The notes beneath the pieces were generated by a model, which was not told the origin of the DNA, searched no databases, and worked only from the letters and a program-made list of their open reading frames with translations. Positions 31,775 to 54,085 of a stretch of 64,000 bases of DNA are shown one piece after another; position 1 is the first letter of the stretch, and every line of letters starts with the position of its first letter. The stretch is from Streptomyces halobius (GTDB lineage: Bacteria > Actinomycetota > Actinomycetes > Streptomycetales > Streptomycetaceae): assembly GCF_023277745.1 (NCBI RefSeq), contig NZ_CP086322.1:1488001-1552000 (forward strand), given 5' to 3'. The position numbers and the translations under genes were made by a program.

Positions 31775-32290
31775 ATGACCAGCAAGAGACCGGCAAGCAA
31801 GGGTCCGGCCACGGGGCTGCCACTCGCGGCGGCCGTGCTCACGGGGACGGTCGCGCTCTATATCGCGCTCGTCGCCTTCGGCAATATCACCGACTTCGAC
31901 ACCAATCGGGAGTTCGTCCGCCACGTCCTGGCCATGGACACCACATTCAAGGACGACGACCTGATGTGGCGCGCCGTCACCTCACGCTCGCTGCAGGACA
32001 CCGCTTATCTGGCGATCATCACCTGGGAGGTGCTGGCCGCGGTGGTGCTGGTCGCGGCCACCGGATTGTGGGCGGTCGGCCTACGGAACGGGAACCGCAC
32101 CGCCCGCGCTCGGCAGGTGGCCACCGTGGGGCTGCTGATGGTGCTGTTGCTCTTCGGGGCGGGATTCCTGGCCATCGGTGGCGAGTGGTTCGCGATGTGG
32201 CAGTCCGAGGACTGGAACGGGGTGGAGGCGGCGACCCGGAACTTCACCGTTGCGGGGATCGCTCTGCTGGTGACGCTGCGCTCTGCCTGA
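31775..32290 (+). CDS. DUF2165 membrane protein
   Basis: A 171-residue protein with four membrane helices and the DUF2165 motif FGNITDFDTNREFVRHVLAMDTTF after helix 1. The function of the family is unknown. The ATG at 31775 has GGGAGA 6 bases before it. The last four codons (Leu-Arg-Ser-Ala) and the stop lie inside the left terminal repeat of element E1, so the native C-terminus appears to have been replaced. Confidence 0.85.
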   Translation: MTSKRPASKGPATGLPLAAAVLTGTVALYIALVAFGNITDFDTNREFVRHVLAMDTTFKDDDLMWRAVTSRSLQDTAYLAIITWEVLAAVVLVAATGLWAVGLRNGNRTARARQVATVGLLMVLLLFGAGFLAIGGEWFAMWQSEDWNGVEAATRNFTVAGIALLVTLRSA

Positions 32291-32760
32291 GCCGACATGG
32301 TTGCTCGCCGTTTTCGGCTTCCCGCCGCAGGGGGTTTCGCCTGCGGCGGGCCTGAGCCGACGTTATCGGCTGTCCCGCCATCGCACCTGCGGTGGGCTGT
32401 TGCCGCTGCGCGGGGCTGTTCGGCAGCGGTGCCGGACCTCCGGACTCCGTCCTGCGGACCGGCACCTCCCGAAGGGGTGGGGAAGAAGACCGGTAGGGGT
32501 ACACGTAGCCGGTCATGTACACCTTGTGGACGTGACCACAGGCACCCGACAGACGACATGTGCCCCCACCGGCCTCTTTCCCCCACCGTCGGGAGGATGG
32601 GGGTACCTCCCATGCCCTTCAGGCTATGGGGGAGGGCCGCAGGACGGAGTCCCAAGGCCCGTCACCGCACCCGAAAACCCCACGCCCGCCGCAGGCGCAA
32701 CCCCCACGGCGGGACAGCCGAAAACGGCGAGCAACCCAGCCGGCCTAAGCCGAGCGCAGC
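32275..32760. repeat. E1: 486-bp quasi-palindromic repeat element
   Basis: A non-coding element symmetric about 32517.5. The outermost 45 bp at each end (32275-32319 and 32716-32760) are inverted copies with 38 of 45 matches, the inner 21 identical. A second perfect 16-bp pair lies at 32442-32457 and 32637-32652. Looser matches continue to a central hairpin, TGTGG/CCACA at 32525-32540. It is about 95% identical by eye to part of E2 in reverse. It overlaps the 3' ends of both convergent neighbours and probably acts as their terminator. Confidence 0.85.
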
Positions 32761-35700
32761 GCACCCCCACTCGCTGCGTACACGTCCTCCATGTAGCGCC
32801 CTGACGCAGTCAGTTCCCGCAACCACCTCTCCGACTCCTGCGCCGAAGCCCCCGTGCGCGCCCCGTGCAGCTCCCGGAAGGCGGCCCGGACGCCGGGCGC
32901 CATCCGGCTGCCGTCGCCGCAGACGTACACCCGCGCCCCGGCCTGTAGCAGTTCCCACACCTCGTCGGCCTCAGCGGCGATGCGGTGCTGGACGAAGCGG
33001 TGGCCGTGCTCGGGGCGGGCGCTGAAGACGGGCCGTACGGAGACGGCCCCGGCCGCTTCGGCGGCCGCGAGTTCCGTGGCGTGCAGGAAGTCCGCGGTGC
33101 GGTCGTCGCAGCCGAAGTAGAGCCGCGCGGGGGCGGTCTGGCCTGCGGCGACGCGGTCGGCGACGGCACCGCGGAAGGGGGCGAGCCCGGTGCCTGCCGC
33201 GACCATGATGACGGGCGTGGTGTCGGCCGGGTCGAGTCGGAACGCCGCGCGGCAGGGCTGGACACGGGCCAGCAGGGTGTCGCCGGGCCGCAGCGTGTGC
33301 AGATAGGTCGAGCCGGTGCCGCCGGGCAGCAGCGAGACCATCAGATCGGCGTGCCGGGGGTCGTCGGCGGGCGACGACGAGAGGGAGTAGTGCCGGATGC
33401 GCAGTGGCGGCAGCAGTTCCAGGATCGTGGGCCAGGGCAGTGCGCCGCGCAGCGCCGGGTGTGCCTCGATCAGTTCGATCAGGGTGCACGGGTCGTCCTC
33501 GGCGATGGTCTCCAGGGCCAGGCGCTCGGGCGGGCAGGGATTGTGCGCGGCGAGTACCGCGCGCTGCCGGGGTGTTGGCCGGCTTCCCAACTCCAGGTGA
33601 CGAGTGAGGAGTTGGCGTACGGACAGGGGTCGGTCGACGGGGAGGGTGTCGCGGCCGGGGTGTGCTGAGTGCAGCGCGAGAACGGTGTCCAGGTCGACGC
33701 CGAGGGCGCTCGCCGCACGCTCGACGGCGGCCGGGGTGTTGGCCGGCAGTACCGCCAGATGGTCGGCGGTGCGGTAGCTGACGCTCTCGGGCAGTGCGAT
33801 CCGCAGGAAGCGCTTGGGCCGTGGCCGGCCCGGTGCCGTGAGGTCGGATGCCTCGGTGACGGTCATCGGGACGAGGTCGTGCCGGGCGGCCAGTGCGTCC
33901 AGCGGCCCGCCGGCGACCTCTGTAACGGTGTAACAGGTCTCCTCGACGGCCGGAGCGCTCGCGCCGGCGCCGGCCGGATCGCCGTACCGCGTCAGCAGCT
34001 GGGTGCGCAGTGCGGCGGTGAACTCCTGCACGGTGCCGCTGAGATCGCCGGAGGCGTCGGCCTCGGCGCGCGGCAGCAGCCGCCGCGCACCCAGCGCGTC
34101 GAGCCGGTCGTCGATGAGGGTCGGCACCTGCTGGTAGGTCGCGGGCCAGTTGCGGTCGCCGACGCCCAGGACGGCGTACGGCACCTGAGCGGCGGCGCCG
34201 TCGGGCGCGGTGTTGAGCCAACGGACGAAGGCGGCCGCGTCATCGGTGGGCTGACCGTTGTAGGAGGCGGCGACGATGACGACGGGCCGGTCGCCGGGCA
34301 GCCCGCCGGCCTGCGCGTCCAGGGGTGCCACATCGGTGGCGAAGCCCAGGCCGGCCGCCTCGTCGGCGATCCGCTCGGCGAACTCGCGGCAGGTGCCGTA
34401 GTTGGTGCCGTGCAGCAGGAGCAGTCCGGTCCCCTGCGGGACGCGGGTCGGCAGACCGTCGTCCGCCGCCGGGGCGGCGGCGGTCGCGCTGCCGGGGAGT
34501 ACGGCGAGCGCGGCGCGGGTCGCGGCCCGGTCCTCGGGTGTCCGCGCGGCCAGGGTGAGCGTGAACCCGTCGGGCTTGAGGGTGAGCGTCTCCTTGATGC
34601 GCAGCCGGTAGTCGGTGTGGTCGATCAGCCGGTAGCGGTGCACCAGGAGGGCGAGCAGCATGGTCGCCTCGTGCAGCGCGAACTGCCGCCCGATACAGGC
34701 GCGTTCACCGGTCCCGAACGGTTTGTACGCATGCGGCGAGCGGGCCGCCTCGGCCTCCGGGCTGAAGCGGGACGGGTCGAACAGCCCGGGGTTGTCGCCC
34801 CAGGACGGGTCGCGGTGCAGCATCGGTGTGAGCACCGTGATCAGATCCCCCGCCCGCACGGGGTAGCGGCCGCCGAGCAGGGTGTCCGCACGGGCCTGGC
34901 GGGTGAAGGCGGCGGCCGTCGGCCACAGCCGGAGCGCCTCGTTGAGGACCTGCCGGGTGAACGGAAGCCGCCCGATGTCCTCGAAGGACGGGGCGGGGTC
35001 GGGGTCGTCGCCCCACAGTTCGTCGGCCTCACGCTGGGCCATCCGCAGCGCGACCGGGTCCTTGAGCAGGTGGTACAGCGCGAAGGAGAGGGCCCCCGAG
35101 GTGGTCTCGTGACCGGCGATCAGGAAGGTGATGACCTGGTTGCGGATATTGGCGAGGTCGAGGGTGGGGCCGTCGCCGGCGCCTCCCCCTTCCGTCGCGC
35201 CGAGCATCAGGCCCAGCAGATCGTCGTCGCCGGTCTCGCCGCTCGCGGTCCTGGCGGCGATGACCTCGTCGACGACGGACGCGAGGTAGTCCGCGTCGAC
35301 GCGGAACGCGGCGTCCTCCTCGGAGTGGTCGGCGCCGGGCTTACGGGCGAACTTGGTCATGCTCCACTGGAGGCAGCGCACCATCGACTCGACGAACGGA
35401 TGCGGGGTGTCGCGGGCGAACGACTCGAAGTCGAAGCCGAAACCGGCCAGCCCGATGGTGTCCAGCGTCATCCGGGTCATGTCGTCCGCGACATCCAGGG
35501 ATGTGCCGTCGGCCACCCGTCGGTCCCAGCCGGCCATGACCCGGCGGGCGACCTTGAGCATCGCCGGGTGATAGGTGCGCATCGAGCCGAGCGCGAAGGC
35601 GGGCATCAGGACCTTGTGCGCCTTGGCCCAGTTCGGCTCGTCGTTGTAGGCGGTGAACAGACCGTCACCGGCGAACTCCCGGACGTCCTCCAGAACCACC

Positions 35701-35936
35701 GACACCCCCTTGGCGAAGCGGCTCTCGTCGGCGATTTCGGTGACCAGCTCCAGCGAGGAGACGAACAGCGTCTCCCGGTCGTTGAGCTTTCGCCTGAACA
35801 ACGGGCCGTGGACCCGTGCGAGGTCCATGGCCTGCTGGATGGGTGTCGTGGTGAGACCCGCCGCCGAGATGTCGGCGACCGGTATGCCGTTGTCAGCGGC
35901 GGGTTCATCGGTGCGGAGCGCGATGGTGTCGATCAT
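32745..35936 (-). CDS. Self-sufficient cytochrome P450/NADPH reductase (CYP102 type)
   Basis: A 1063-residue fusion monooxygenase, probably hydroxylating fatty acids or similar chains. The P450 domain (about 1-455) has the I-helix AGHETTSGAL, the ExxR motif EALRLWP, and the heme loop FGTGERACIGR with its Cys ligand. The FMN flavodoxin domain (about 510-660) starts LLLLHGTNYGTCREFA. The FAD/NADPH domain (about 690-1063) contains RHYSLSSSP and VAAGTGLAPFRG. The length and order match BM3-like CYP102 enzymes. The start VID.. uses ATG at 35936. The tail Ala-Ser-Gly-Gly-Ala-Leu-Arg-Ser-Ala comes partly from E1. It is divergent from a PAS-HTH regulator. Confidence 0.93.
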   Translation of the reverse strand: MIDTIALRTDEPAADNGIPVADISAAGLTTTPIQQAMDLARVHGPLFRRKLNDRETLFVSSLELVTEIADESRFAKGVSVVLEDVREFAGDGLFTAYNDEPNWAKAHKVLMPAFALGSMRTYHPAMLKVARRVMAGWDRRVADGTSLDVADDMTRMTLDTIGLAGFGFDFESFARDTPHPFVESMVRCLQWSMTKFARKPGADHSEEDAAFRVDADYLASVVDEVIAARTASGETGDDDLLGLMLGATEGGGAGDGPTLDLANIRNQVITFLIAGHETTSGALSFALYHLLKDPVALRMAQREADELWGDDPDPAPSFEDIGRLPFTRQVLNEALRLWPTAAAFTRQARADTLLGGRYPVRAGDLITVLTPMLHRDPSWGDNPGLFDPSRFSPEAEAARSPHAYKPFGTGERACIGRQFALHEATMLLALLVHRYRLIDHTDYRLRIKETLTLKPDGFTLTLAARTPEDRAATRAALAVLPGSATAAAPAADDGLPTRVPQGTGLLLLHGTNYGTCREFAERIADEAAGLGFATDVAPLDAQAGGLPGDRPVVIVAASYNGQPTDDAAAFVRWLNTAPDGAAAQVPYAVLGVGDRNWPATYQQVPTLIDDRLDALGARRLLPRAEADASGDLSGTVQEFTAALRTQLLTRYGDPAGAGASAPAVEETCYTVTEVAGGPLDALAARHDLVPMTVTEASDLTAPGRPRPKRFLRIALPESVSYRTADHLAVLPANTPAAVERAASALGVDLDTVLALHSAHPGRDTLPVDRPLSVRQLLTRHLELGSRPTPRQRAVLAAHNPCPPERLALETIAEDDPCTLIELIEAHPALRGALPWPTILELLPPLRIRHYSLSSSPADDPRHADLMVSLLPGGTGSTYLHTLRPGDTLLARVQPCRAAFRLDPADTTPVIMVAAGTGLAPFRGAVADRVAAGQTAPARLYFGCDDRTADFLHATELAAAEAAGAVSVRPVFSARPEHGHRFVQHRIAAEADEVWELLQAGARVYVCGDGSRMAPGVRAAFRELHGARTGASAQESERWLRELTASGRYMEDVYAASGGALRSA

Positions 35937-36065
35937 GCCTCCAGCGTGACCGGCCCGGTGCATGGGTCTGTACCGGACAACTGCATGATTGTGCAGTGGA
36001 TTTTCGCGGCCGGATCTTGCGGACGCACGGGAAATAGGGCACTGGACGACGGGGATGCCGAGGGC

Positions 36066-36797
36066 ATGGCGGACGGTACGGCGGGCGAGGGCGCGGCGGG
36101 CGCGAGCAGGGCGCGGGGGGCGGCAGGGCCGGTGGGTCCTCCTGGTGGGGACGGGCCGGGCGGCCCTCCCGACCCCGCCGGCCCGTACGCCGCCGGCCCC
36201 TGGCGCAACTACTTCCTGATCCTGCTGGACCGCATCCCCACCCCGATCGCGGTGTGCCACGCCGACGGCGAGGTGCTGATCGCCAATCCGGCGATGGCCG
36301 CGCAGTGGGGCGCGGCCCCCGGCCGGCTGCGCGGCCGTAATCTGCTGGATCTGTTCCGGCCACGGGCGAAAGAACAGCTCCACCGGATCGCCGAGGCGGT
36401 ACGGCTGGGGCACCGGTCCCGCTATCCCGTGGAGGTGCACTGGCGGTCCGCCTCCGACGGGTCGGAGCGGGAGGGGGAGCTGACGGTGGATCCGGTCGGT
36501 GACCCTTCGGTACGGCCGCCCGCGCTGCTGGCGCTGCTGCGGGTCCGCGACACCGCACCGCCGCCCGCGCCGCGTGACACGGCCAGCCCCGTGGAGGCCC
36601 GGATCCTGGCGCTGGCCGCCGGGGGCGCGACCACGGCCTCGATCGGCACGGCACTGGGGCTGACGGTGGACGGCGTCAACTACCACCTGACCCGGCTGGC
36701 CCGCCGCTGGCGGGTGCAGGGCCGTACCGCGCTGGTCGCCAGGGCGTACGTCCTGGGCGTGCTGGCACCGGACCGCTGGCCGCCGGCTCCCGCCTGA
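36066..36797 (+). CDS. PAS-domain transcriptional regulator with LuxR-like HTH
   Basis: A 243-residue protein. A Gly/Ala/Pro-rich N-terminal 40 residues lead to a PAS domain (about 48-160: ILLDRIPTPIAVCHADGEVLIANPAMAAQWG) and a C-terminal helix-turn-helix (about 180-235: ALAAGGATTASIGTALGLTVDGVNYHLTRLARRW). It is divergent from the CYP102-type gene, 129 bases apart, and is the likely regulator of it, perhaps sensing a fatty acid, heme or redox state through PAS. The start is uncertain: upstream in-frame codons exist, but ATG 36066 begins the plausible coding composition. Confidence 0.8.
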   Translation: MADGTAGEGAAGASRARGAAGPVGPPGGDGPGGPPDPAGPYAAGPWRNYFLILLDRIPTPIAVCHADGEVLIANPAMAAQWGAAPGRLRGRNLLDLFRPRAKEQLHRIAEAVRLGHRSRYPVEVHWRSASDGSEREGELTVDPVGDPSVRPPALLALLRVRDTAPPPAPRDTASPVEARILALAAGGATTASIGTALGLTVDGVNYHLTRLARRWRVQGRTALVARAYVLGVLAPDRWPPAPA

Positions 36798-36877
36798 GCG
36801 GCCGACGCCGGACACGGCCGGATCCATCCGCCCGGAAGGACGCCGGCGGGCAGGTACGCGGGGTGCACAGGCACCCA

Positions 36878-36984
36878 GGAGCCCGTTCGCCGAAGTCGGG
36901 CCCGCGCTCCCGGCGGGCACGCGGGCACGCGAGAGCCATTTGCCGAAGTCCGGCTCGCCCTCCCGACGGGTGCGCGGGCCCGCG
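36878..36984. repeat. Two imperfect 54-bp direct repeats
   Basis: Copies at 36878-36931 and 36931-36984 share the core TGCCGAAGTC/TCGCCGAAGTC and CTCCCGRCGGG. They lie directly before the universal stress gene. Confidence 0.5.
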
Positions 36985-37013
36985 CGTACCCGGCCAGGAC
37001 TAACCTCCCAGGT

Positions 37014-37475
37014 ATGGAGGAGAACGCAGCCGCGCAGTTCGAGCGCGGAACGGACGGCCCGAAGGTCATCGTCGTCGGCGTCGACGGCTCCGACTCGTCG
37101 TGGCGCGCCGCCGCGTACGCGGCCGGGCTGGCCAGGCGCCAGGCGTCGAAGCTCGTCCTGGTCTACGTCCAGCCGGTGCTGCCGGCCGGAGCGACGATGG
37201 GCGCCCCCGTCGTGGACACGACACAGGAGGTCGCCGATGAGCTGATCGCCGAGTTCCGGCAGGCGACGGAGCGGCTGCAGGGGATCTACGAAGTGCGCTG
37301 GGAGTTCCACACCCTGCGCGGGGACCCGTACAACGGGCTGGTGCAGATGGCCGATGAGCTGAAGGCCGACGCGGTGGTGGTCGGCGCCTCGGAGTCGGCC
37401 GGGCACCGCATCATGGGGTCGGTCGCGGTCCGCCTGGTCAAGGCCGGACGCTGGCCGGTCACCGTCGTCCCGTAG
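37014..37475 (+). CDS. Universal stress protein (UspA family)
   Basis: A 153-residue single-domain USP. IIVVGVDGSDSSWRA-type start (VIVVGVDGSDSS) and the C-terminal GASESAGHRIMGSVAVRLVKAGRWPVTVVP give the ATP-binding pattern of the nucleotide-binding subgroup. It is probably stress-induced. It is followed by a dodecin gene about 108 bases on, possibly in the same transcript. Confidence 0.9.
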   Translation: MEENAAAQFERGTDGPKVIVVGVDGSDSSWRAAAYAAGLARRQASKLVLVYVQPVLPAGATMGAPVVDTTQEVADELIAEFRQATERLQGIYEVRWEFHTLRGDPYNGLVQMADELKADAVVVGASESAGHRIMGSVAVRLVKAGRWPVTVVP

Positions 37476-37582
37476 GTGTGTCCCCCGGGATGCCCGCCCG
37501 CCGCTCCGCTGGTGGGGCCCGCCGCCCTGAGGCACGGTGGAAGGTGGACGGGCGGAGCGCCGCCCTGGCGAGGGGAGACACC

Positions 37583-37798
37583 GTGACCGACCGCACCTAC
37601 CGCGTGACCGAGATCGTGGGCACGTCCCAGCAGAGCATGGACGCCGCGATCCGCAATGGCATCGAGCGCGCGTCGGATACGCTGCGCTACCTGGACTGGT
37701 TCGAGGTCACCCAGATCCGCGGGCATCTCGTCGACGGCGAAATCGATCACTATCAAGTCGGCCTGAAGGTCGGATTCCGGCTGGAGGATGTCGGGTGA
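37583..37798 (+). CDS. Dodecin family protein
   Basis: A 71-residue protein that forms hollow dodecamers storing flavin or CoA. RVTEIVGTSQQSMDAAIRNGIERAS and the Trp of LDWFEVTQIRGHL, which stacks on flavin, are the family features. The GTG start follows AGGGGAG by 5 bases. The frame is shorter than one might expect because upstream in-frame sequence is spacer. Confidence 0.92.
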   Translation: MTDRTYRVTEIVGTSQQSMDAAIRNGIERASDTLRYLDWFEVTQIRGHLVDGEIDHYQVGLKVGFRLEDVG

Positions 37799-37937
37799 GG
37801 CGTTTCCGGCCCTGGCATATCCCGGAACTCGTTCATATTTTCTAGGGAGTCGCCTTCCGGAAGCAGCCGCCAAAGGGTCATGATGATCCGCCGTCGGACG
37901 AACGACGGAGCGTACGAAACGTACGAAGGGATCACCC

Positions 37938-39416
37938 ATGCGGCTGCGCGCGGGACAGGGCGTATTACGCCGGAAGCCGATCGAACACATCGAGGAGCCG
38001 GAAGGCGCGGCGAGCCAGCAGCTCACCCGGGTGCTCGGGCTGTGGCAACTGACCGCCATCGGCGTCGGCGGCATCATCGGCGCGGGCATCTTCACCCTCG
38101 CGGGCACCGTCGCGAACGGGAAGGCGGGCCCCGCGGTCCTGCTCTCCTTCCTCATCGCAGGCGTGGCGAGCGCCGCGGCGGCCTTTTCTTACGCCGAATT
38201 CGCCGGGCTGATCCCGAAGGCGGGGTCGGCCTACACCTATGGCTACGCGGTCCTCGGCGAACTGGCCGGCTGGTTCATCGGCTGGGATCTGCTGCTGGAG
38301 TACACCGCGATCGTGGCGGTGGTCGCGATCGGCATCTCCGGGTACTTCAACTTTCTGCTCGGCGAGCTGGGCGCCGAACTGCCCGCCTGGATGCTGGGCG
38401 CGCCGGGAACCGGTGACGGCCACCGGGTGGACCTCTTCGCGGCGTTGCTCTGCCTGTTGATCGCGTATCTGCTGACCCTGGGCATCAAGAACGCCGCGCG
38501 TTTCGAGACGGTCGTGGTGGTCCTGAAGGTCCTGGTGGTCCTGCTGGTGATCGGGGTCGGCTTCTTCCACATCAAGTCCGGGAACTACGAGCCGTTCTTC
38601 CCGTTCGGGGTGACCGGTGCGTTCACCGGCGCGGCGACCGTGTTCTTCGCGGTCTTCGGCTATGACGCGATGAGCACCGCGGCCGAGGAGTCCAAGGACG
38701 CCCAGCGCCATATGCCGAAGGCGATCGTGTACTCGCTGGCGATCTCGATGGTGCTGTACGTGCTGGCCTGCCTGGTCCTGACGGGTATGCAGAACTACAC
38801 GGACATCGACCCGGAGAGCGGCTTCTCGTCGGCGTTCAAGTCGGTGGGCCTGAGCGGCCTCGCGGATGTCATCGCGGTCGGCGCGATCATCGGCATCCTG
38901 ACCGTCATGTTCACCTTCATGCTCGGTGTGACCCGGGTGTGGTTCTCGATGAGCCGGGACGGGCTGCTGCCGAAGTGGTTCGCCAAGACCAGCCCCAAGC
39001 GGCATGTGCCGACCCGGGTGACCTGGATCGTCGGCGCCGCCTCGGCCGTGATCGCGGGGTTCCTGCCGATCGCCGAGGCCGCCGAACTGACCAACATCGG
39101 CATTCTGCTGGCGTTCGTGGTCGTCTGCATCGCGGTGATCGTGCTCCGCTACAAGCGGCCCGAACTGCCGCGGTCGTTCCGTACACCGGGGATGCCGGTG
39201 GTGCCGGCAATCGGTGTGTGCTTCTCGATCTGGCTGATCACGTTCCTGCAGTGGCAGACCTGGGTGCGCTTCGCGCTGTGGTTCGCCGTCGGCCTGGTCG
39301 TCTACTTCGCGTACTCCTACCGGCGCTCCGAAATGGCCAAGGCGGAGCGTGAGAACGCGGACGCGGGGGACGCGGACGCGGGGGACGCGGACGCGGGGGA
39401 CGCCGAGGGACGGTAG
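37938..39416 (+). CDS. APC-family amino acid permease
   Basis: A 492-residue permease with 12 helices. GVGGIIGAGIFTLAG in helix 1 is the APC signature, and FFAVFGYDAMSTAAEESKDAQRHMPKAIVYSL is the cationic amino acid transporter-like block. It may carry lysine, arginine or other cations. The ATG has AAGGGA before it, in a leader with two CGTACG direct repeats and a CCGTCG/CGACGG hairpin. The C-terminal tail ends in a three-fold Ala-Asp-Ala-Gly-Asp repeat from a 15-bp tandem repeat. Confidence 0.92.
   Translation: MRLRAGQGVLRRKPIEHIEEPEGAASQQLTRVLGLWQLTAIGVGGIIGAGIFTLAGTVANGKAGPAVLLSFLIAGVASAAAAFSYAEFAGLIPKAGSAYTYGYAVLGELAGWFIGWDLLLEYTAIVAVVAIGISGYFNFLLGELGAELPAWMLGAPGTGDGHRVDLFAALLCLLIAYLLTLGIKNAARFETVVVVLKVLVVLLVIGVGFFHIKSGNYEPFFPFGVTGAFTGAATVFFAVFGYDAMSTAAEESKDAQRHMPKAIVYSLAISMVLYVLACLVLTGMQNYTDIDPESGFSSAFKSVGLSGLADVIAVGAIIGILTVMFTFMLGVTRVWFSMSRDGLLPKWFAKTSPKRHVPTRVTWIVGAASAVIAGFLPIAEAAELTNIGILLAFVVVCIAVIVLRYKRPELPRSFRTPGMPVVPAIGVCFSIWLITFLQWQTWVRFALWFAVGLVVYFAYSYRRSEMAKAERENADAGDADAGDADAGDAEGR
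39357..39401 (+). repeat. 15-bp tandem repeat in permease tail
   Basis: Three perfect copies of GCGGACGCGGGGGAC, in frame, code for Ala-Asp-Ala-Gly-Asp repeats. Length variation would leave the frame intact. Confidence 0.85.
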
Positions 39417-39424
39417 TGGCTGCG

Positions 39425-39465
39425 GGGCGGCGCCGTTCGCTCACGCGCGCTCTCAGGCGCCGCCC
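39425..39465. terminator. Bidirectional hairpin
   Basis: GGGCGGCGCC (39425-39434) and its perfect complement (39456-39465) bracket a 21-base loop between the convergent permease and small secreted gene. Confidence 0.55.
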
Positions 39466-39506
39466 TCTGAATCAGGACCTCGGCTCTCCTGCTTCCCGAC
39501 AGCGCG

Positions 39507-39974
39507 TCAGAACACGAACGGGCCCGGGGACTGTGCGGAGGTGGCCTCGCACGTCACCGTGGTACCGAGCACCACGACCTGGAGCGAGGTGGCCTCCAGG
39601 CTGTCGCCCGCGGCGACGGTGCCGCTGAGCGGCCCGGTGGAGACTGCGCTGCCGGCCGGGATCGCCGGGTTGGCGCTGCCGCTGAACTCCGTCGTCCCGG
39701 AGCCGTTCTTGGTGAGCGTGAGCGTGGAGGTGACCGAGTTCGCGGCGATGTCGATGGGCGAGGTGATGGCCGAGGTGGACACGTCGATGGTCGCGGCCGT
39801 CCCGTCCTGGGCCGCGGTGAGCGTCGCCGTACCCGAGCCGTAGCTGCCGCAGTCGAAGGAGAGGGTCGCGGTGTCCGGTGTCACCGCTGCGGCGGCCGGC
39901 GCCATGCCGAGGGTGCCCGCCAAGGCTATGCCGATGCCGAGTACCGTGCCGGTTCCGAGCGTGCCGTGTCTCAT
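39507..39974 (-). CDS. Small secreted protein
   Basis: A 155-residue exported protein. Signal peptide MRHGTLGTGTVLGIGIALAGTLG is cut near AAAA-V (residue 30). The mature part is rich in Thr, Ser and Ala with two cysteines (FDCGSYG and TCEATS) that could form a disulfide, and looks all-beta. It is a type often found in streptomycetes with no known function. It is a single gene. Confidence 0.75.
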   Translation of the reverse strand: MRHGTLGTGTVLGIGIALAGTLGMAPAAAAVTPDTATLSFDCGSYGSGTATLTAAQDGTAATIDVSTSAITSPIDIAANSVTSTLTLTKNGSGTTEFSGSANPAIPAGSAVSTGPLSGTVAAGDSLEATSLQVVVLGTTVTCEATSAQSPGPFVF

Positions 39975-40298: not shown

Positions 40299-40310
40299 GA
40301 CAACGTTGTC
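40299..40310. promoter_or_regulatory. LacI-type operator upstream of GH92 gene
   Basis: GACAACGTTGTC is a perfect 12-bp palindrome with the central CG typical of LacI-family sites. It sits about 97 bases before the mannosidase start. Behind it lie short GCTGTSGTCGG-like direct repeats (40310-40380). The rest of the 432-base gap shows no gene. Confidence 0.6.
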
Positions 40311-46641: not shown

Positions 46642-46665
46642 GAGTCGAACGTTCGCCTAACAGTC

Positions 46666-46689
46666 GTAAACTTACATGCGTAATGCATG
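46666..46689. promoter_or_regulatory. Candidate TetR operator
   Basis: GTAAACTTAC (near-palindrome, 46666-46675) abuts CATGC-N5-GCATG (46675-46689). It lies 25 bases before the longest P450 start and downstream of the tetR-type gene. Two imperfect TCAGGG..GCGCTCCAG repeats fill 46745-46865. Confidence 0.5.
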
Positions 46690-46853
46690 GGCATGTGCAG
46701 CGGGGGTGGCTGCTGGCAGTTCTTCGGGGAGCGCGGGCTCTTGTCAGGGCGTCAGACTCGCTCAGGGGTGCGGCTCGCAGGGCGTAGGCCCAGCGCTCCA
46801 GCCCAGGGGCTGAGGCGGCGTCAGGACTTGAGGCCTTCCTCAGGGTGTGCGGC

Positions 46854-47471
46854 TCAGCGCTCCAGCAACAGCCGCAGGATTTCGTCCACGAACCGGTCCA
46901 GCCGGCGGGCGTCCTTCGGGCTCGGCATGACCTGCCAGAGCATGACGCGCCCGTGCACCGACGACCACAGCACATACGGCGCCTCGGCGCGCGAACCGCG
47001 TACCGTCCAGCCGGCCTCTTCGCAGGCCGTCAGCGCGTCGTTCCAGCCGCGCACCAGCATTCCGGCCGGGTGTCCGGCCAACCGCTCGGGGCCGACCGGG
47101 GTCTGCCGGGTCTCGTGGAGCAGGCGGTACGTGGCGGGGTGCGCGACGGCGTAGCGGCAGTAGGCGCGCAGCTGGGCGCGCAGCCGTGCCACCGGGTCGT
47201 CGTCGGCCTGCTCGGCAGCGGCGGCCATCGCCTGCCCCAGCCGCTCGTAGCTGATCTCCAGGGTGGCCCACACCAGCTCGGTCTTGTCGGCGAAGTGGCG
47301 GTAGATGCTCGGGGCGGCGACGCCGGCGGCCCGCGCCACCGCGCGCAGCGACAGCGCGTCCTCGCTGCCGACCTCCTCCAGGAGGCGCTCGGTGGCCCGC
47401 AGGAGTTCCTCCCGCAGACGCTCGCCCTGCCCACGCGGATTGCGGGGCCGGGCGGCCGCCCTCTCGCTCAC
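46854..47471 (-). CDS. TetR-family transcriptional regulator
   Basis: A 205-residue repressor. The HTH (about residues 18-65) is LREELLRATERLLEEVGSEDALSLRAVARAAGVAAPSIYRHFADKTELV. The C-terminal ligand domain has helical HPATYRLLHETRQTP and WSSVHGRVMLWQVMP. Its position directly before the CYP105-ferredoxin-reductase set suggests it controls that set in response to a small hydrophobic ligand. Confidence 0.88.
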   Translation of the reverse strand: MSERAAARPRNPRGQGERLREELLRATERLLEEVGSEDALSLRAVARAAGVAAPSIYRHFADKTELVWATLEISYERLGQAMAAAAEQADDDPVARLRAQLRAYCRYAVAHPATYRLLHETRQTPVGPERLAGHPAGMLVRGWNDALTACEEAGWTVRGSRAEAPYVLWSSVHGRVMLWQVMPSPKDARRLDRFVDEILRLLLER

Positions 47472-47578
47472 TGCCTCCGGTCCTTCCCTGGCCTGGCCGA
47501 TGTACTGCCCACCAGGGTTTCACACCGGGACGCGGGGCGTACGCGAGCATCGGAGCGGTCGGTCTGCCGCCCGTCCTC

Positions 47579-48742
47579 TCACCTCCCCATCTTCAGGCCG
47601 TCGGCCGCGGCGCCCCGGCTGAGGACCGCCTTGCTGATCGCGTCGCGGATGTCCGCGTGGCCGCGTGTCCGGGCGAGATTGAGCATCCGCACCGGCGGTC
47701 CCTGCAGGGCGAGCTGCGGAATGTACTCGGCCTTGGTGACCTGCCAGCGCCCGCCGTGCCGGGCAGGCGGTTCGAAGTGGAAACGGGCGATGGTGCCCCA
47801 GTTGCCCGCCGGTTTCTTCATACGGCCGGAGATATGGGCGCCGAGCCCGTAGGCGACCCAGGTGCCGTTGACCTTCTCGTACGGCTGCGGGGTGTGCGCG
47901 TGGGTGCCGAGGAGCAGGTCGATGTCCGGGCGGCCTTCGGTCTGCGAGGCGGTGAGGGCCTCGGCGAGTCTGATCTGCTGCGCGTTGGGGGCGGTCCGGT
48001 ACTCGGTGCCCCAGTGCGCGCTGACGACCACCACATCGGCACCGGCCCGGCGGGCCGCCCGCGCATCGGCGATGATCTTCTTCTTGTCGAGCAGATTCAC
48101 CGTCCAGGGCGCGGACGCCGGGCGCTGGGCACCATTGGTGCCGTAGGTGTACGAGAGGTGGGCCACCTTCGCTCCGCTGCGGGCCAGTACCCGCGCCGAG
48201 CGGGCGGCCTCGGTGGCGCTGCGGGCCGAGCCGACATGCCGCAGCCCGACCGTCTCCAGCGCCCGCAGGGTGCGGTGCACACCCGGGAGGCCACGGTCCA
48301 GCACATGGTTGCTGGCGGTGGAGCAGGAGTCGTAACCGGTCGCCTTCAGAGCGGACGCGAGCTGCGGCGGGGCCTGGAAGACGGGATAGCCGGCGAAGGG
48401 GCCGGACAACTGTCCGAGCGGTGCGCCGAGATGACACACCGCCATGTCGGCGTCGTGGATGACCGGCTTCACCCCGGCCAGCATCGGCCGGAAGTCGTAG
48501 CCCATACCCTTCGCGTCCCGCCGCGCCGTGCCGAGGACGTCCGGGACGGACGGGATGATCTCTCCGGAGGCGACCAGGGTGAACGGCCGCTGGGGGGAGG
48601 GCTCGACCACGGGGGCGCCGCCGTGGCCGCGCGGCTTGGATTCCGAGTGCGGGGGCGGGGTGCTCTCCGCGCCGCCGCAGCTCACGGCCAGCGCGGCGAG
48701 CAGGACCACCGCCGCATACCGTTTGTGCTTGTACGCGCTCAT
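47579..48742 (-). CDS. CapA-family lipoprotein
   Basis: A 387-residue protein of the CapA (poly-gamma-glutamate) metallophosphatase-like family. The lipobox LAVSCGG gives a lipid-modified Cys at about 21. The domain motifs VASGEIIPSVPDVL, HLGAPLG, TASNHVLDRGLPG and LLLGTHAHTPQPYEKVNG are those of the family. It is probably attached to the outer face of the membrane. The role in streptomycetes is not clear. ATG 48742 is preferred; a GTG at 48751 is also possible. Confidence 0.88.
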   Translation of the reverse strand: MSAYKHKRYAAVVLLAALAVSCGGAESTPPPHSESKPRGHGGAPVVEPSPQRPFTLVASGEIIPSVPDVLGTARRDAKGMGYDFRPMLAGVKPVIHDADMAVCHLGAPLGQLSGPFAGYPVFQAPPQLASALKATGYDSCSTASNHVLDRGLPGVHRTLRALETVGLRHVGSARSATEAARSARVLARSGAKVAHLSYTYGTNGAQRPASAPWTVNLLDKKKIIADARAARRAGADVVVVSAHWGTEYRTAPNAQQIRLAEALTASQTEGRPDIDLLLGTHAHTPQPYEKVNGTWVAYGLGAHISGRMKKPAGNWGTIARFHFEPPARHGGRWQVTKAEYIPQLALQGPPVRMLNLARTRGHADIRDAISKAVLSRGAAADGLKMGR

Positions 48743-48975
48743 CCCCGACACATATCAACAGACTTATGCAGGAAAACGCCCGAGTAGGCGGGTGTGTCCG
48801 CGCTCTCCCCCGTACGGACCCACGGCTGTGGAAGTGCACGGCGTCGAGGAATCACCGTGCCGCGCAGCCTTCACCGTGCCACCGAGCCGTCACCGGCCGC
48901 CGAGCCACAGTGTCGCGGAATCGGAGCGGCCCGCACAGCGCCCCGAGCCCGGGCCTCCTCGTCTAGGCTGCCGGG

Positions 48976-49947
48976 ATGACGCCCACCCTGCCCGACGACG
49001 ACCGCTTCCCCGACGCGCTGCCCGTAGTCGAGACGATGCGCCGGACCCCCTCCGGGCGGGCCTGGCTCGACCGGCTTCCGGGGATCGTCCGGGAGATCGA
49101 GGAGCGGTGGGAACTGCGGCTCGGCGCCCCGTTCCACGGCGGCAGCTGCTCTTGGGTGGCGCCGGCTACGGGGCCGGGTGACGGATCGACGCTTTCGGCG
49201 CGCAGCGGGTGGGCGGTACTCAAGGTGACCTGGCCGCACCGCGAGGCCGACGGCGAGGCACCGGCGCTGCGGGCCTGGAACGGCAACGGGGCGGTACGGC
49301 TCCACCGGTGGGACCGTGAGCACAGCGCGCTGCTGATCGAACGCTGCGACCCGGGCACGACGCTCGACGACTCCCCCTTGCCGCCCGCCGAGCGGCTCAC
49401 CGTCGCCGCCGGACTGCTGCGTGACCTTTGGGCCGCGCCCACACCGCCCGACGAACAGCTGGAGCACGTCGGCACGGTCTGCGCCGAATGGGCCGACCTG
49501 CTCCAGGAGCGGATGATCCGGCTGCGGCCCGGTTACGACCCCGGTCTGGTCACGCGCGGCGCCGAGCTGCTGCGTACGCTGCCGACGACGGCCGCCCGCG
49601 AGGTCGTGGTGCACGGTGACTTCAACCCCGGCAATGTGCTGGCGTCGAAGCGCCGTCCGTGGCTGGCCATCGACCCCAAACCAATGGTCGGCGACCCGGC
49701 GTACGACCCATGGCCGTTGCTGGCGCAGATCGACGATCCCTTCGGGCACCCGGATCCGCGGCCGGTGCTCCGCGAGCGGTACGCGCTGGTCGCCGACGTG
49801 CTGGGCGAGGATCCGGCACGCCTGATGGCCTGGGCGGTGGCGCGCGGGGTGGAGTGCGCGCTGTGGTGCGCGGACCACGACGAAGTCGAGGACGGGGCGG
49901 AGCTGTTGGCGGAGGCCCGGGTGCTGGCGGAGCTGGCCGGGCTGTGA
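48976..49947 (+). CDS. Aminoglycoside/hydroxyurea-type antibiotic phosphotransferase
   Basis: A 323-residue kinase-fold protein. VVVHGDFNPGNVLAS is the catalytic loop and AIDPKPMVGDPAYDPW the metal-binding motif, the pattern of the APH(6)/hydroxyurea phosphotransferase family. It may inactivate an aminoglycoside or a similar small molecule, or act on a metabolite. The family call is firm; the substrate is not. It is a single gene. Confidence 0.85.
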   Translation: MTPTLPDDDRFPDALPVVETMRRTPSGRAWLDRLPGIVREIEERWELRLGAPFHGGSCSWVAPATGPGDGSTLSARSGWAVLKVTWPHREADGEAPALRAWNGNGAVRLHRWDREHSALLIERCDPGTTLDDSPLPPAERLTVAAGLLRDLWAAPTPPDEQLEHVGTVCAEWADLLQERMIRLRPGYDPGLVTRGAELLRTLPTTAAREVVVHGDFNPGNVLASKRRPWLAIDPKPMVGDPAYDPWPLLAQIDDPFGHPDPRPVLRERYALVADVLGEDPARLMAWAVARGVECALWCADHDEVEDGAELLAEARVLAELAGL

Positions 49948-50070
49948 GCCGGGGGTGAGCCGGGCGCCGAGAGCGGCCGGCCGGTCGCTTCGCCGTCACG
50001 GCGAGGGTCATACGGCGGCCTCGGCGCGCCGGGCCGCGGCTGTCGCCGACGCGTCGTAGTCGGCGGCGAC

Positions 50071-50114
50071 GCTGCGCACCCGGCACATCGCCCTCGATGT
50101 GCCGGGTGCGCAGC
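50071..50114. repeat. Perfect 20-bp hairpin
   Basis: GCTGCGCACCCGGCACATCG and its exact reverse complement are separated by CCCT. No U-tract follows. It lies in the 437-base gap before the second polyol locus. The strand to the left (50000-50070) contains only short unassigned frames. Its role is unknown. Confidence 0.9.
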
Positions 50115-50324
50115 GGCAGGATCTCCGCCGGGCGGGACGGGCGCGACGGCCCTTTCGGACGGCCGCCACGTTTCCAGCCACCCTCCGACGGGTCGATTGC
50201 CTCCGAGGCCATACGTCGAGGCCATCCCCGCCAAGGTCATACGTCCGACGTCCCTCCCGGATCCGGCCGGTGACGGAGGTGGAACAGCTCTCGCGCCATC
50301 CACAGAAATCACACAGATCTCGTG

Positions 50325-50368
50325 GAATTAACAATTCTCCTGCCTTGGCCTGAGAACTTCACATGTGA
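50325..50368. promoter_or_regulatory. AT-rich operator/promoter region of second polyol locus
   Basis: GAATTAACAATTC (50325-50337) and TCACATGTGA (50359-50368) are palindromes in a short AT-rich stretch just before the first gene. They are likely binding sites of a sugar-responsive repressor, perhaps of DeoR or GntR type. Confidence 0.5.
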
Positions 50369-50384
50369 TTTTGTTTTAAGTATC

Positions 50385-51200
50385 ATGAATGACGTGATCC
50401 CTGAAAACTCGACGTCCGCAGCGGACCACCGTCCGATGATCGGCGTCTCGCTGAAGCTCCACTTCGGGCTGGCGCGGACCCGGGACTGGCTCGCGGAGGT
50501 GGCGGCGCTCGACGATGCGCTGGCCGCGCTCCCCCGTCCCGTCGACCTCTTCGTGCTGCCGTCCTTCCCGGCGCTGGCGGACGCCCGCGAGCTGCTCTCC
50601 GGCACCGGAATCGCCTTCGGCGCACAGGATGTGCACTGGGCGGAGAGCGGCGCCTGGACCGGTGAGGTGTCCGCCGGGATGCTCGCCGAGGCGGGCGCAC
50701 GGTATGTGGAGGTCGGCCATGCCGAGCGCCGCCGGTACTTCGGGGAGACGGATGAGACCGTCACCGCCAAGACCCGGGCGGCCACCCACGCCGGCCTCGT
50801 TCCCGTGATCTGTGCGGGCGAGCGGCGTGCCGAGGATCTCGACGCGGCCGTCGACGAAACGCTGACCCAGGTACGGGCCGCGCTGTCCGGTGCCGTACCG
50901 GACAGCGAGGTCGTCATCGCGTACGAGCCGGTCTGGGCGATCGGCGCCCGCGCACCGGCGCCGGCCCGGCACGTCCGGGCGGTGGCCGGTGCCATCCGCG
51001 GCTGTCTGCGCGACCACGACGTACGCGGGCGGCTGATCTACGGCGGCACCGCGGGCCCCGGCACCTACGGCGCGCTGGCCGGCGCCGTCGACGGACTGTT
51101 CCTGGGCCGGCTGGCCCACGACACCGAGGGCCTGCGCAAGGTCCTCGGTGAAATCTCCGGGACCGCCGGCGAAGAGATCTCCGGGTCCGCCGGCGGCTGA
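50385..51200 (+). CDS. Triosephosphate-isomerase-like sugar phosphate isomerase
   Basis: A 271-residue TIM-barrel isomerase. SLKLHFG near the start replaces the usual GNWKMN, then VEVGHAERRRYFGETDETV (His) and VIAYEPVWAIGARAPA (catalytic Glu) and IYGGTAGPGTY. Housekeeping TPI is usually more conserved; this form resembles EryH/LerI-type isomerases of tetrulose phosphate. Together with the next gene it fits erythritol or threitol breakdown. ATG 50385 is taken; an ATG at 50439 (MIGVSLK) also fits the family. Confidence 0.85.
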   Translation: MNDVIPENSTSAADHRPMIGVSLKLHFGLARTRDWLAEVAALDDALAALPRPVDLFVLPSFPALADARELLSGTGIAFGAQDVHWAESGAWTGEVSAGMLAEAGARYVEVGHAERRRYFGETDETVTAKTRAATHAGLVPVICAGERRAEDLDAAVDETLTQVRAALSGAVPDSEVVIAYEPVWAIGARAPAPARHVRAVAGAIRGCLRDHDVRGRLIYGGTAGPGTYGALAGAVDGLFLGRLAHDTEGLRKVLGEISGTAGEEISGSAGG

Positions 51201-51334
51201 CGGCCGGCCCCGGCAACGCCCCGGACGTCAACGCCACCCCGACCGACGCCGACCGCCCCCAGCCCCAGGAACCCCAGGACCCCAGGCCCAGCGGCCCCGG
51301 CCCCACAAGCCCCACAGCCCCGAGGGAGACCACC

Positions 51335-51796
51335 GTGCAGCACACCCACCGCATCGCCATCGGTGCCGACGACGCCGGGATCGTCATGAAGGACGCGATG
51401 ATCGCCTACCTCACCGAGCACGGCCACCCGGTCACCGACATGAGCGCCACGGCCACCGAGGACTACCCGGACGTCGCCGAGCGGGTCGCACGGAGCGTGG
51501 CCCGCGGCGAACACGAGCGTGCCGTCCTCATCTGTGGCACCGGCATCGGCATGGCGATCGCCGCCAACAAGGTCCCCGGCATCCGTGCCGCCCAGATCCC
51601 CGACAGCTACAGCGCCGAACGCGCCCGCAAGTCCAACGACGCGCAGATCGCCTGCTTCGGCAATCGCACGATGGGAGTGGAGGCCGCGCTGGTCTGTCTG
51701 CAGCACTGGCTGATGTCCGACTTCGCGGGCGGCGGTTCCGCCCCCAAGGTCGAAAAGATCAAGCAGGTCGAGTCGCGCAATCTGCGCGCGGCCTGA
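51335..51796 (+). CDS. RpiB/LacAB-family sugar phosphate isomerase
   Basis: A 153-residue isomerase. IAIGADDAGIVMKDAMIAYL and LICGTGIGMAIAANKVPGIRAA with the catalytic Cys in ICGTG are characteristic of RpiB. Next to a TPI-like gene, it is probably the EryI/DerI-type tetrulose-4-phosphate isomerase rather than ribose-5-phosphate isomerase. It starts with GTG after GAGGGAG. Confidence 0.88.
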   Translation: MQHTHRIAIGADDAGIVMKDAMIAYLTEHGHPVTDMSATATEDYPDVAERVARSVARGEHERAVLICGTGIGMAIAANKVPGIRAAQIPDSYSAERARKSNDAQIACFGNRTMGVEAALVCLQHWLMSDFAGGGSAPKVEKIKQVESRNLRAA

Positions 51797-51826
51797 CTCC
51801 GTCGCCCGGAAGGAAGCCGATCCACG

Positions 51827-52529
51827 GTGAGCACGACAGTCCCCGCATCCGCCGGGTCCCCCGCACCGGCCTCCCCCGCCTTCGTCTGGAGCGAGACGGA
51901 CCGCCGGGCGGTCGACACCGCCCGGGTGCTGGCGATGGATGCCGTGCAGCGGGCCGGGCACGGTCACCCCGGTACCGCGATGGCCCTGGCCCCGGTCGGG
52001 TATCTGCTGCACCAGCATCCGATGCGCCATGCCCCGGGCGATCCCCACCGCCGCCGGCCGGCAATCCGCTGCCGGCCGCCGATCCGTACGGCCGCACCGT
52101 CCACTACGGCATCCGTGAACACGCCATGGGCGCCGTGATGAACGGCATCGTGCTGCACGGCAACACCCGGATCTACGGGGCACGTTCCTGGTCTTCTCCG
52201 ACTACATGCGACCCGTCGTCCAGATGGCCGCCCTGATGCGGCTGCCGGTGACCTACATCTGGACGCACGACTCCATCGGCGTCGGCGAGGACGGGCCCAC
52301 CCACCAGCCCGTCGAACAACTCGCCGCCCTCCGGGCGATCCCCGGTCTCAATGGCGACCGGGGACACTGCGTCTCCCCGGAGCACTACGGCGCCTCCGCC
52401 TCCGAACTCTTCGAGGAGTACGGCATCACCGCCGACGCGATAGCCGAGGCGGCCCGCGCGACACGGACCCCCTCCACCTCTCCCGCTCCCCCACCGTCTC
52501 CCTCCTCCCCCTCTCCCGAAAGGCGGTAA
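51827..52529 (+). pseudogene. Transketolase with large internal deletions
   Basis: Three pieces of one transketolase lie in three different frames: the N-terminal thiamine-diphosphate region (TARVLAMDAVQRAGHGHPGT), then [20 protein letters not shown], then [19 protein letters not shown], and a C-terminal scrap ([20 protein letters not shown]). About 330 residues between the first two and more than 100 near the end are missing. It cannot make an active enzyme. It would have recycled C4 and C5 sugar phosphates in this operon. Confidence 0.9.
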
Positions 52530-52534
52530 CAACC

Positions 52535-53548
52535 ATGCGCGCAGTCGTCGTCGAGGAACCGAACCGGCTGTCCGTGACCACCGTCGCGGACCCGACGCCC
52601 GGCCCCGACGAGGTCGTCGTCAAGGTCACCGCCGCCGGGCTGTGCGGCACCGATGTGCACATGCTGGCGGGAGAGTTCGGGCCGACCCGCTACCCCGTCA
52701 TCCCGGGGCATGAGTTCTCCGGCGAGATCGTCGCCGTGGGCACGGAGGTGACGGGCTTCGCGGAGGGCGACGCGGTGGCCGCCGACCCCGCGATCTACTG
52801 CGGCTCCTGTCACTTCTGTGCCATCGGCCGCGGCAACCTCTGTGAACAGTGGGGCACCATCGGCATCACCGTCGACGGCGCCTGCGCCGAATACGTCAAG
52901 GTGCCGGCCGGCAACTGCTACCGGCTGCCGGAGACCGTACAGCTCGCGCACGCCCCGCTCATCGAGCCGCTGTCGACCATCGTGCACGGCTTCGACCTCG
53001 TCGGCCCGCGGCTCGGCGACAACTTCCTGATCTACGGCGCGGGCACCATGGGCCTGCTCTACCTCCAGGTCGCCCAGCACTCCGGTGCCGCCTCGGTCTC
53101 GGTCGTCGACATCAACGAGGACCGGCTGGCGGTGGCCCGGAAGCTCGGCGCCGACACCGTCGCCACCAGCGCCGATGCCCTGACCGCCGGCCATCCGCGC
53201 GGCTGGGAAGTCGTCACCGACTGCACCGGCAACATCCGGGCCATCGAGGACGCCCTGACCCGGCCCATCCGCGGCGGCACCTTCCAGCAGTTCGGCTGCG
53301 CCCCCGACCAGGATCTGGCCCGCTTCTCCCCGTTCCGCATCTACAACGACGAGATCCGGATCGTCGGCAGCATGGCCATCCTGCACAGCTACGGCCGTGC
53401 CGTGGAACTGCTGGCCAGGGGCGCCATCGACGCCGACACCATGATCACGCACCGCTTCGGCCTCGACGAGTACGCGACCGCGCTGGAGACCTTCAAGAAG
53501 GGGGCCGGCCGTAAGCTGCAGATCGTCCCTCACGGCCGGATGTCGTGA
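52535..53548 (+). CDS. Zinc-dependent alcohol/polyol dehydrogenase
   Basis: A 337-residue medium-chain dehydrogenase. Catalytic zinc ligands are in GLCGTDVHML and GHEFSGEIV; the four structural cysteines lie in YCGSCHFCAIGRGNLC; the NAD site is IYGAGTMGLLYLQ. It likely oxidises a sugar alcohol such as threitol or erythritol to the ketose. It begins 5 bases after the transketolase remnant ends, so it can be translated even though that gene is broken. The structure is intact. Confidence 0.9.
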   Translation: MRAVVVEEPNRLSVTTVADPTPGPDEVVVKVTAAGLCGTDVHMLAGEFGPTRYPVIPGHEFSGEIVAVGTEVTGFAEGDAVAADPAIYCGSCHFCAIGRGNLCEQWGTIGITVDGACAEYVKVPAGNCYRLPETVQLAHAPLIEPLSTIVHGFDLVGPRLGDNFLIYGAGTMGLLYLQVAQHSGAASVSVVDINEDRLAVARKLGADTVATSADALTAGHPRGWEVVTDCTGNIRAIEDALTRPIRGGTFQQFGCAPDQDLARFSPFRIYNDEIRIVGSMAILHSYGRAVELLARGAIDADTMITHRFGLDEYATALETFKKGAGRKLQIVPHGRMS

Positions 53549-53560
53549 CAGCGGCCGTCC

Positions 53561-54085
53561 GCTGCGCTGTGCTCGGGCCGGCTTGGTTGCCCCACCGTTC
53601 TTCGGCCGTCCGGCCGTGGGGGGCGCCTGCGGCGGGCCTGGGCCCCACGTTGTCGGCTGTCCCGCCGTGGGGGGCGCCTGCGGCGGACCTGAGCCGATGT
53701 TTTGGCTGTCCCGCCGTGGGGGTGTTTCGCCGTTGCGCCTGCGGCGGGCGTGGGTTTTCGGGTGCGGTGACGGGCCTCCGGACTCCGTCCTGCGGCCCTC
53801 CCCCATAGCCTGAAGGGCATGGGAGGTACCCCCATCCTCCCGACGGTGGGGGAAAGAGGCCGGTGGGGGCACATGTCGTCTGTCGGGTGCCTGTGGTCAC
53901 GTCCACGAGGTGTACATGACCGGCTACGTGTCACCCCACCGGTCTTCTTCCCCACCCCCTCGGGAGGCGCTGGACCGCAGGACGGCGTCCGGAGGTCCGG
54001 CACCGCTGCCGAACAGCCCCGCGCAGCGGCAACAGCCCACCGCAGGTGCAACGGCGGGACAGCCAAGGATGTCGGCTCACGCAAA
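53561..54085. repeat. E2: 525-bp quasi-palindromic repeat element
   Basis: The second copy of the element, inverted relative to E1. From about 53778 to 53906 it is nearly identical to the reverse of 32522-32650. It has two extra copies of a roughly 50-bp module (TGTCCCGCCGTGGGGG..GCGCCTGCGGCGG) on the left. It starts 13 bases after the dehydrogenase stop and ends at a decayed PA14 gene. It is non-coding. Confidence 0.85.

Follow-up and report, generated by a model that had tools for sequence, protein, structure and literature searches.

A clade-restricted family of composite palindromic repeats in Streptomyces halobius, candidate portable gene ends

Results

Two inverted copies of a composite palindrome

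The window analysed here, a stretch of 64,000 nucleotides from Streptomyces halobius (contig NZ_CP086322.1, positions 1,488,001 to 1,552,000), holds two nearly identical palindromic elements in opposite orientation, E1 and E2, about 21 kb apart. Both are members of a dispersed, clade-restricted family of composite palindromic repeats, which we followed through the genome of the window (G000; one contig, 9,239,126 bases or 9.24 Mb) and through 392 sampled genomes of the genus, designated below by G-codes; copy sites are given L-numbers. The parts of the two elements, in window positions, are as follows.

32271 to 32761, + strand: E1, the whole element, from the TGA-CGCTGCGC terminus to GCGCAGCG (sequence, inverted-repeat arms, top genome-search match)
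32274 to 32354, + strand: left terminal arm of E1, made of the terminal motif and an outer module, 80% complementary to 32681-32761
32681 to 32761, - strand: right terminal arm of E1, partner of the left arm in the same inverted-repeat pair
32410 to 32692, + strand: core of E1, GCGGGGCTGTTCGG...GCCCGCCGC, the unit used for aligning copies (alignment, signature search)
32594 to 32634, + strand: optional small hairpin GGATGGGGGTACCTCCCATGCC..GGCTATGGGGGAGG in the right arm of the E1 core (alignment)
32525 to 32540, + strand: apex palindrome of E1, TGTGGACGTGACCACA (alignment, tip-pairing analysis)
53560 to 54086, - strand: E2, the inverted copy, with repeated modules at one end (sequence, inverted repeats, genome search)
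53741 to 54022, - strand: core of E2 (alignment, signature search)
53892 to 53907, - strand: apex palindrome of E2 (sequence, alignment)
53602 to 53722, + strand: tandem modules of E2 (53602-53644, 53653-53695 and 53701-53722), spaced by 51 and 49 bp

E1 measures 488 bp between its termini (32274-32761) and is built in layers: from the outside in, a terminal motif (TGA-CGCTGCGCTTTGCCTGAGCC-like), ~50-bp modules, the core, and then an imperfect mirror. Across the family the modules carry ...TTTCGGCTGTCCCGCCGT...GCCTGCGGCGGGC and the outer ends read TGA-CGCTGCGC...GCGCAGCG-TCA. The core, ~250-283 nt long, consists of two hairpin units, the optional small hairpin (found in 13 of the 32 copies compared, 4 of 36 being excluded) and an apex palindrome, TGTGGnCGCGnyCACA. 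The optional hairpin is a passenger: it belongs to a separate short palindromic repeat, GGGGGTACCTCCC...GGGGGAGG, for which we met no published name and which occurs in many genus genomes as well as inside the E1/E2 family, for instance at window positions 32594-32634. At ~40 bp and with a much wider spread, this repeat is distinct from the E1/E2 family, and most matches of relatives to an E1 query are in fact to this short hairpin (query 318-375).

An earlier, sequence-only reading of the window had placed E1 and E2 to within a few bases, and its estimate of ~95% identity over 330 bp agrees with what we measure: the identity between the two, in opposite orientation, is 95.8% across 334 bp (the genome search gave 92% across 383 bp), the common part running from 37 bp before to ~296 bp after the core start GCGGGGCTGTTCGG, with identity dropping outside. 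The ~50-bp modules that it described recur as three in-register copies in E2, and neither element contains a transposase, both being too short for one. The terminal arms of E1 are 81 nt long and 80% complementary, an inner pair of 22 nt reaching 91%; the perfect 16-bp pair ascribed to E1 lies in E2 (53702-53717 with 54051-54066), not in E1. The other outer end of E2, opposite the repeated modules, at 54086, looks truncated by eye. The description of the elements as non-coding nearly holds, the exception being the terminal arms of E1, within which each of the two neighbouring genes has its end. Finally, the proposed inversion of the 21-kb segment between the copies found no support: in G389, the nearest of the relatives compared, and in G088 the E1 flanks keep their order and orientation at a distance of 1.5 kb and 0.3 kb respectively, and in G317 they keep their orientation at a distance of ~5 kb. 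Relative to these species, then, nothing indicates a flip of the E1-E2 segment. Recombination across the common 334 bp would nevertheless be possible in principle.

A dispersed family restricted to one clade

That E1 and E2 belong to a larger repeat family, as had been suspected, is confirmed by a genome search. In G000, 40 of 172 candidates were scored and correspond to 40 distinct places, of which 36 have both core anchors, two of these with large deletions. A 20-base core signature occurs 44 times at up to one mismatch, 50 times at up to two and 75 times at up to three (8 for the reversed control at up to three), and the count for the module motif is 187, its reversed control giving 17; such numbers greatly exceed what chance would give. 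Of ten additional signature places, L181 alone is complete, the other nine being half or truncated cores. Hairpins without a core stand at 8 of 18 module loci inspected outside the 40 scored places, in nine stretches. Some distant cores are almost the same (L018 and L019 are 99.4% identical over 353 bp), which shows recent copying or exchange. At one end of another copy (L048, G000:C1 near 2489500) the terminal module stands three times in tandem. Core orientations are mixed along the chromosome, and a general polarity was rejected on that account; between 3.0 and 3.9 Mb of G000:C1, unlike the rest of the chromosome, 12 of 13 cores point the same way, an observation made post hoc.

Outside G000, a search with the core, in which two candidates per genome were scored, gave near whole-length matches (72-73% identity) in four other genomes of the 392 (G371, G389, G413 and G317) and a match of any kind, mostly short, in 41. 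A 24-mer taken from the right arm turned up in 23 of the 392 genomes, with at least six copies in ten of them, the reversed-pattern control giving at most two per genome: G217 (67), G088 (39), G317 (31), G160 (26), G000 (25), G389 (15), G214 (13), G413 (12), G198 (10) and G371 (6). These ten arm-rich genomes are among the nearest by phoU/gpmA DNA. Arm spread and core matches together indicate that the arms are common to one clade while the tips differ. On six contigs of G217 (C18, C21, C83, C102, C105 and C151) the arm match begins at base 6-47 of the contig, suggesting that palindromes of this kind may interrupt the assembly of short reads.

Plasmid and phage collections gave no match to the element, and an origin from either was rejected for this reason. 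An exact 18-mer had 11 matches in a named genome collection, none of them in Streptomyces records, the collection being one that may omit the genome itself or very near ones. In the literature searched, which mostly excludes subscription papers, no Streptomyces family of such description was found and six sequence words of the element are absent from the full texts searched; the E1/E2 family is apparently undescribed.

Element ends often coincide with stop codons

Among the 80 element sides, 50 face the 3' end of a gene and 30 a 5' end. On the 3'-facing sides the terminal motif was found in 34 of 50, starting between -25 and +20 from the stop codon in 22 of these 34 (median +5); 23 of the 30 5'-facing sides have the motif, within the same interval in 5 of 23 (median +63). 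Outer ends thus often lie at or just inside stop codons, suggesting that the element works as a portable gene end. The stop codon itself can come from the element: gpmA ends with TGA in G000 and with TAA (8) or TAG (2) in ten relatives, and the TGA at L012 and L026 is the element's own, given that in relatives the corresponding gene closes with TAG or TAA. An element-derived TGA is likewise apparent by eye at L010 and L030. Core sites lie between convergent genes more often than long gaps without an element do (16/40 vs 13/84; odds ratio 3.6, p 0.006).

E1 illustrates this arrangement, and E2 lies at the site of a ruined gene. The neighbouring genes are:

31760 to 32290, + strand: DUF2165 membrane protein gene, flanking E1 (Pfam)
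32745 to 37535, - strand: P450-flavodoxin-reductase fusion gene, convergent, flanking E1 (open reading frame (ORF), Pfam)
52535 to 53548, + strand: zinc-binding alcohol dehydrogenase gene, left of E2, its stop 11 bp before the terminal motif (Pfam)
54087 to 54350, + strand: remnant of an alpha-L-fucosidase and PA14 gene, beside E2 (Pfam for PA14, relatives' loci)

The last codons and the stop of the DUF2165 gene lie inside a terminal arm of E1, and its homologues in G389 and G088 have a different tail; on the other side, the fusion gene has its last codons and stop inside the right arm. In that fusion ORF, ~560 residues ahead of the P450 domain have no Pfam match at the threshold used, and the true start may be further in. 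At E2, a long open fucosidase-PA14 frame (431, 446 and 476 aa, cut by the locus edge) stands in G389, G317 and G088 next to the same neighbouring gene, and just two short pieces of it are left in G000; we take the fucosidase to be a GH29 enzyme.

Gains, and replacement of the old spacer

To locate copy sites in close relatives, three at most, we used a query joined from the flanking gene ends, together with a phoU/gpmA query. Fourteen sites were mapped, a fifteenth (L027), located on one side only, being excluded, and the presence of the element at each was called by profile with shuffled controls. The profile matched at 3 of 14 sites in G389, 1 of 12 in G088, 2 of 9 in G317 and 0 of 1 in each of G214, G334 and G198; the shuffled controls gave none. 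At 11 of the 14 sites, therefore, the element of G000 has no profile match in any relative tested. At L005 the right end touches TAGACT, which by eye resembles a -10 box and is kept in G389.

What the element displaced can be followed at two sites that have a control, that is, where the relatives' spacers match each other. At L015, three relatives have a spacer of 655-783 bp in common, with a gene called in each, and share 0 bp of it with G000. At L026, between phoU and gpmA, six relatives have a spacer of 233-711 bp in common; G000 keeps only the 234-303 bp before the element, followed by the element alone, and lacks a small gene called in G389, G088, G317 and G214. At both sites the old spacer was replaced, not split. 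Downstream of phoU, the segment kept at L026 contains a small ORF rich in Cys, which by eye resembles a metallothionein and is kept in the relatives compared. Replacement is likely at L001, L012 and L043, where two relatives have 125, 245 and 327 bp in common and G000 has 0-18 bp of it, and we infer that it may be the general rule.

The content of a site can also vary between species. The convergent site L025 is occupied in four of them: by the full element in G000, by its right half in G389, by arms around another hairpin in G317, and by arms around an ORF, VOC-family-like by eye, in G088. Coreless, half and swapped-tip forms and one gene-carrying form exist. In the gene-carrying form of G088 (L162, G088:C1:1424600-1426250) the ORF between the arms, VOC/glyoxalase-like by eye, belongs to an element with ~1 kb between the flanking genes.

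A stable fold and signs of exchange

When 12 of the 36 cores were folded and compared with dinucleotide shuffles, all 12 proved more stable (z -3.9 to -11.8, mean ~ -8), mostly as one long hairpin across the centre. The structured nature proposed by the sequence-only reading is therefore upheld by folding; covariation, as assessed by RNAalifold over the whole core, was little. In the right arm, across 34 copies, 253 of 272 cells of the hairpin are paired, and in 6 of the 34 its whole stem has been swapped, arm-to-arm stem pairing failing there; this local hairpin is the best-supported kept structure. For the corresponding stems between the arms, pairing is seen in no more than 250 of 340 and 187 of 264 cells. 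No Rfam family reached its gathering score across the window, and seven loci gave only sub-threshold microRNA and snaR models on long hairpins; an Rfam RNA identity was rejected, there being no covariance-model match at threshold.

Tests for mosaic copies, based on the way in which the segments of the core vary, gave mixed results, and exchange between copies is no more than suggested. In 32 copies the left-apex and left-right correlations are ~0 (p 0.25 and 0.24) and the apex-right correlation is 0.42 (p 0.006); in 27 of 36 copies the values are 0.27 for left-apex (p 0.02), 0.15 for apex-right (p 0.15) and 0.11 for left-right (p 0.22), comparisons in which the left segment carries no internal signal of its own (r between odd and even columns 0.02, as against 0.69 for the apex and 0.58 for the right segment). 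Conflicts by the four-gamete test occur in 12 of 12, 117 of 150 and 36 of 50 site pairs. The two arms of one copy are slightly more alike than arms of different copies (39.1 vs 36.3, p 0.02, 39 copies), a difference too weak to make a case for homogenisation of arms within copies. Flipping of the tip, considered because G413 and G317 seemed by eye to carry the element in opposite orientation beside the same gene, was dropped: both G317 strands match the query alike (117 and 114 bits) and the tip comparison falls within shuffles.

Discussion

The reading that we prefer, with a probability of roughly 45%, is that the E1/E2 family is a clade-restricted composite palindromic repeat that sits mostly at gene 3' ends, is able to replace spacer DNA and serves as a portable two-way transcript end. 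Its smallest form is a hairpin of ~60-100 bp, and larger forms look as if made by nesting modules and a ~250-nt core in the loop. The family has been gained at many sites in the G000 lineage, at some of them taking the place of the old spacer, including terminators and a small gene. The element can bring a stop codon and, on both strands, a very stable hairpin that would take over termination between its neighbours. As for how it arrives, our guess is that a break in the old spacer might be repaired by copying in the element, followed by exchange between copies.

That the hairpins could end transcription in both directions is suggested because relatives' hairpins are gone at element sites and because Streptomyces terminators combine weak U-tracts with stable hairpins. 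A Term-seq study describes Streptomyces terminators as having few U and the longest and most stable hairpins (PMC12207403). The family resembles these intrinsic terminators in its very stable GC hairpins, poor U-tracts and location at gene ends (PMC12207403), and a stable GC hairpin near a gene 3' end is indeed what we find. It differs in consisting of repeats of ~100-730 bp with modules and a core.

A number of observations weigh against this reading. A scan for the terminator pattern (a U-tract after a stem) gave 0 hits in E1 and 1 in E2, with 0.2 and 0.4 expected from shuffles. Pairing between the two hairpin units of the core is possible in 544 of 557 cells, which hardly vary, so that a single copy folds as one long hairpin, and for the left hairpin no more than 240 of 297 cells are paired. 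Core sites are non-convergent in 24 of 40 cases, 18 tandem and 6 divergent, and at divergent sites there is no obvious job for a terminator; at the tandem sites, core orientation relative to transcription carries no signal (7 same and 11 opposite of 18). Gene neighbourhoods come from a codon-usage gene caller made for this analysis. With regard to gains, L005, L010 and L043 are profile-empty in G389 and yet by eye contain short element-like pieces there (at L010, 83 bp can be aligned); a small element already present may therefore simply have grown in some of these cases. With regard to replacement, the relatives' spacers at L014, L030 and L049 barely match each other (0-68 bp), which makes replacement indistinguishable from divergence, and native edges are retained at L005 (24 bp), at L007 (16-19 bp, vs G088 and G317) and at L021 (55-96 bp, an old terminator). 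Several of the genes found in the gaps of relatives are confined to a single relative, which may have acquired them.

Alternatively, the family could be selfish or neutral palindromic DNA, spread by recombination and break repair and surviving where it is harmless, at 3' ends and in spacers, its hairpins being useless to the host. We regard this as possible, if somewhat unlikely. Tandem and divergent sites are common, truncated and half copies are many, E2 lies within a destroyed gene and the content of a single site varies between species, all of which would suit such DNA; it accounts poorly for the enrichment between convergent genes, for a right-arm stem kept by paired changes and for the loss of relatives' hairpins and spacer at L015 and L026.

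The sequence-only reading took E1 and E2 for a miniature inverted-repeat transposable element (MITE) or an unnamed structured repeat. The second description stands: the elements are structured and modular, and we found no name for them in the literature searched. That the family is a MITE of the classical kind, mobilised in trans by a DDE transposase recognising the CGCTGCGC ends, seems quite unlikely to us. Like MITEs, the family is non-coding, has conserved inverted termini (the 81-nt arms; both termini present in 23 of 40 copies) and includes dispersed near-identical copies such as L018 and L019. In contrast to MITEs, the old spacer is missing, not interrupted, at L015 and L026, and the target duplications of 2-10 bp proposed by that reading were absent from the 23 copies, of 40, that retain both termini, the other 17 being excluded as one terminus is lacking (adjacent identity, mean 0.70 bp vs 0.46 permuted, p 0.07, maximum 3). 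The silence of the plasmid and phage collections also argues against a MITE, and no autonomous partner is known, although no search was made for transposases with matching ends.

The working part of the element could instead be a conserved tip, acting either as a protein-binding palindrome, TGTGgtCGCGatCACA, which resembles the CRP box, or as a structured RNA displayed on the hairpin; this we find improbable. The tip is paired in 185 of 224 cells, vs 39-101 when slid by 1-3 (32 copies), and two G389 pieces, one of them armless (L153), score slightly above 200 shuffles (18 and 20, with maxima of 16 and 18), whereas the relatives' elements L051, L053 and L054 do not exceed shuffles. Moreover, the tip is the fastest-varying segment (mean distance 0.215 vs 0.09-0.11 for the arms), it is swapped at one site for another hairpin in G317 and for a gene in G088, and no Rfam family covers it.

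A family of repetitive extragenic palindromes (REP) or REP doublets forming hairpins (REPIN), moved by a REP-associated tyrosine transposase (RAYT, Y1 type), is scarcely credible and was rejected for the present genome, since G000 has no Y1_Tnp (PF01797) match in a search that was positive in 5 of 14 control genomes. The likeness to REP, REPIN and bacterial interspersed mosaic elements (BIME) lies in being extragenic, palindromic, high in copy number and organised as modular mosaics; in BIMEs, REPs are regularly spaced in alternating orientation (PMC2817692; PMC3116915). The E1/E2 family is far larger (488 bp for E1), has units of 250-550 bp, not short doublets, nests them instead of setting them in line, and has ends that can supply a stop codon. 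With no target duplication and no Y1 transposase found, it falls within neither MITEs nor REPINs.

A bolder proposal would make the family a new type of mobile DNA: a self-nesting palindromic gene-end cassette that replaces the DNA between its neighbours' boundaries, supplies its own stop codon and two-way terminator, sometimes carries a gene, and moves by a mechanism that is neither DDE nor Y1. We consider this a long shot.

If the E1/E2 family is indeed a portable two-way gene end, then a single repeat family would have rewired the ends of dozens of genes within one lineage of antibiotic-type producers, ordinary terminators being exchanged in places for a copied cassette. The family would offer a natural setting in which to test how long palindromes persist and spread when no transposase for them is known, and it may account for assembly breaks in the clade. 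Its members would also be candidate two-way terminators for Streptomyces engineering.

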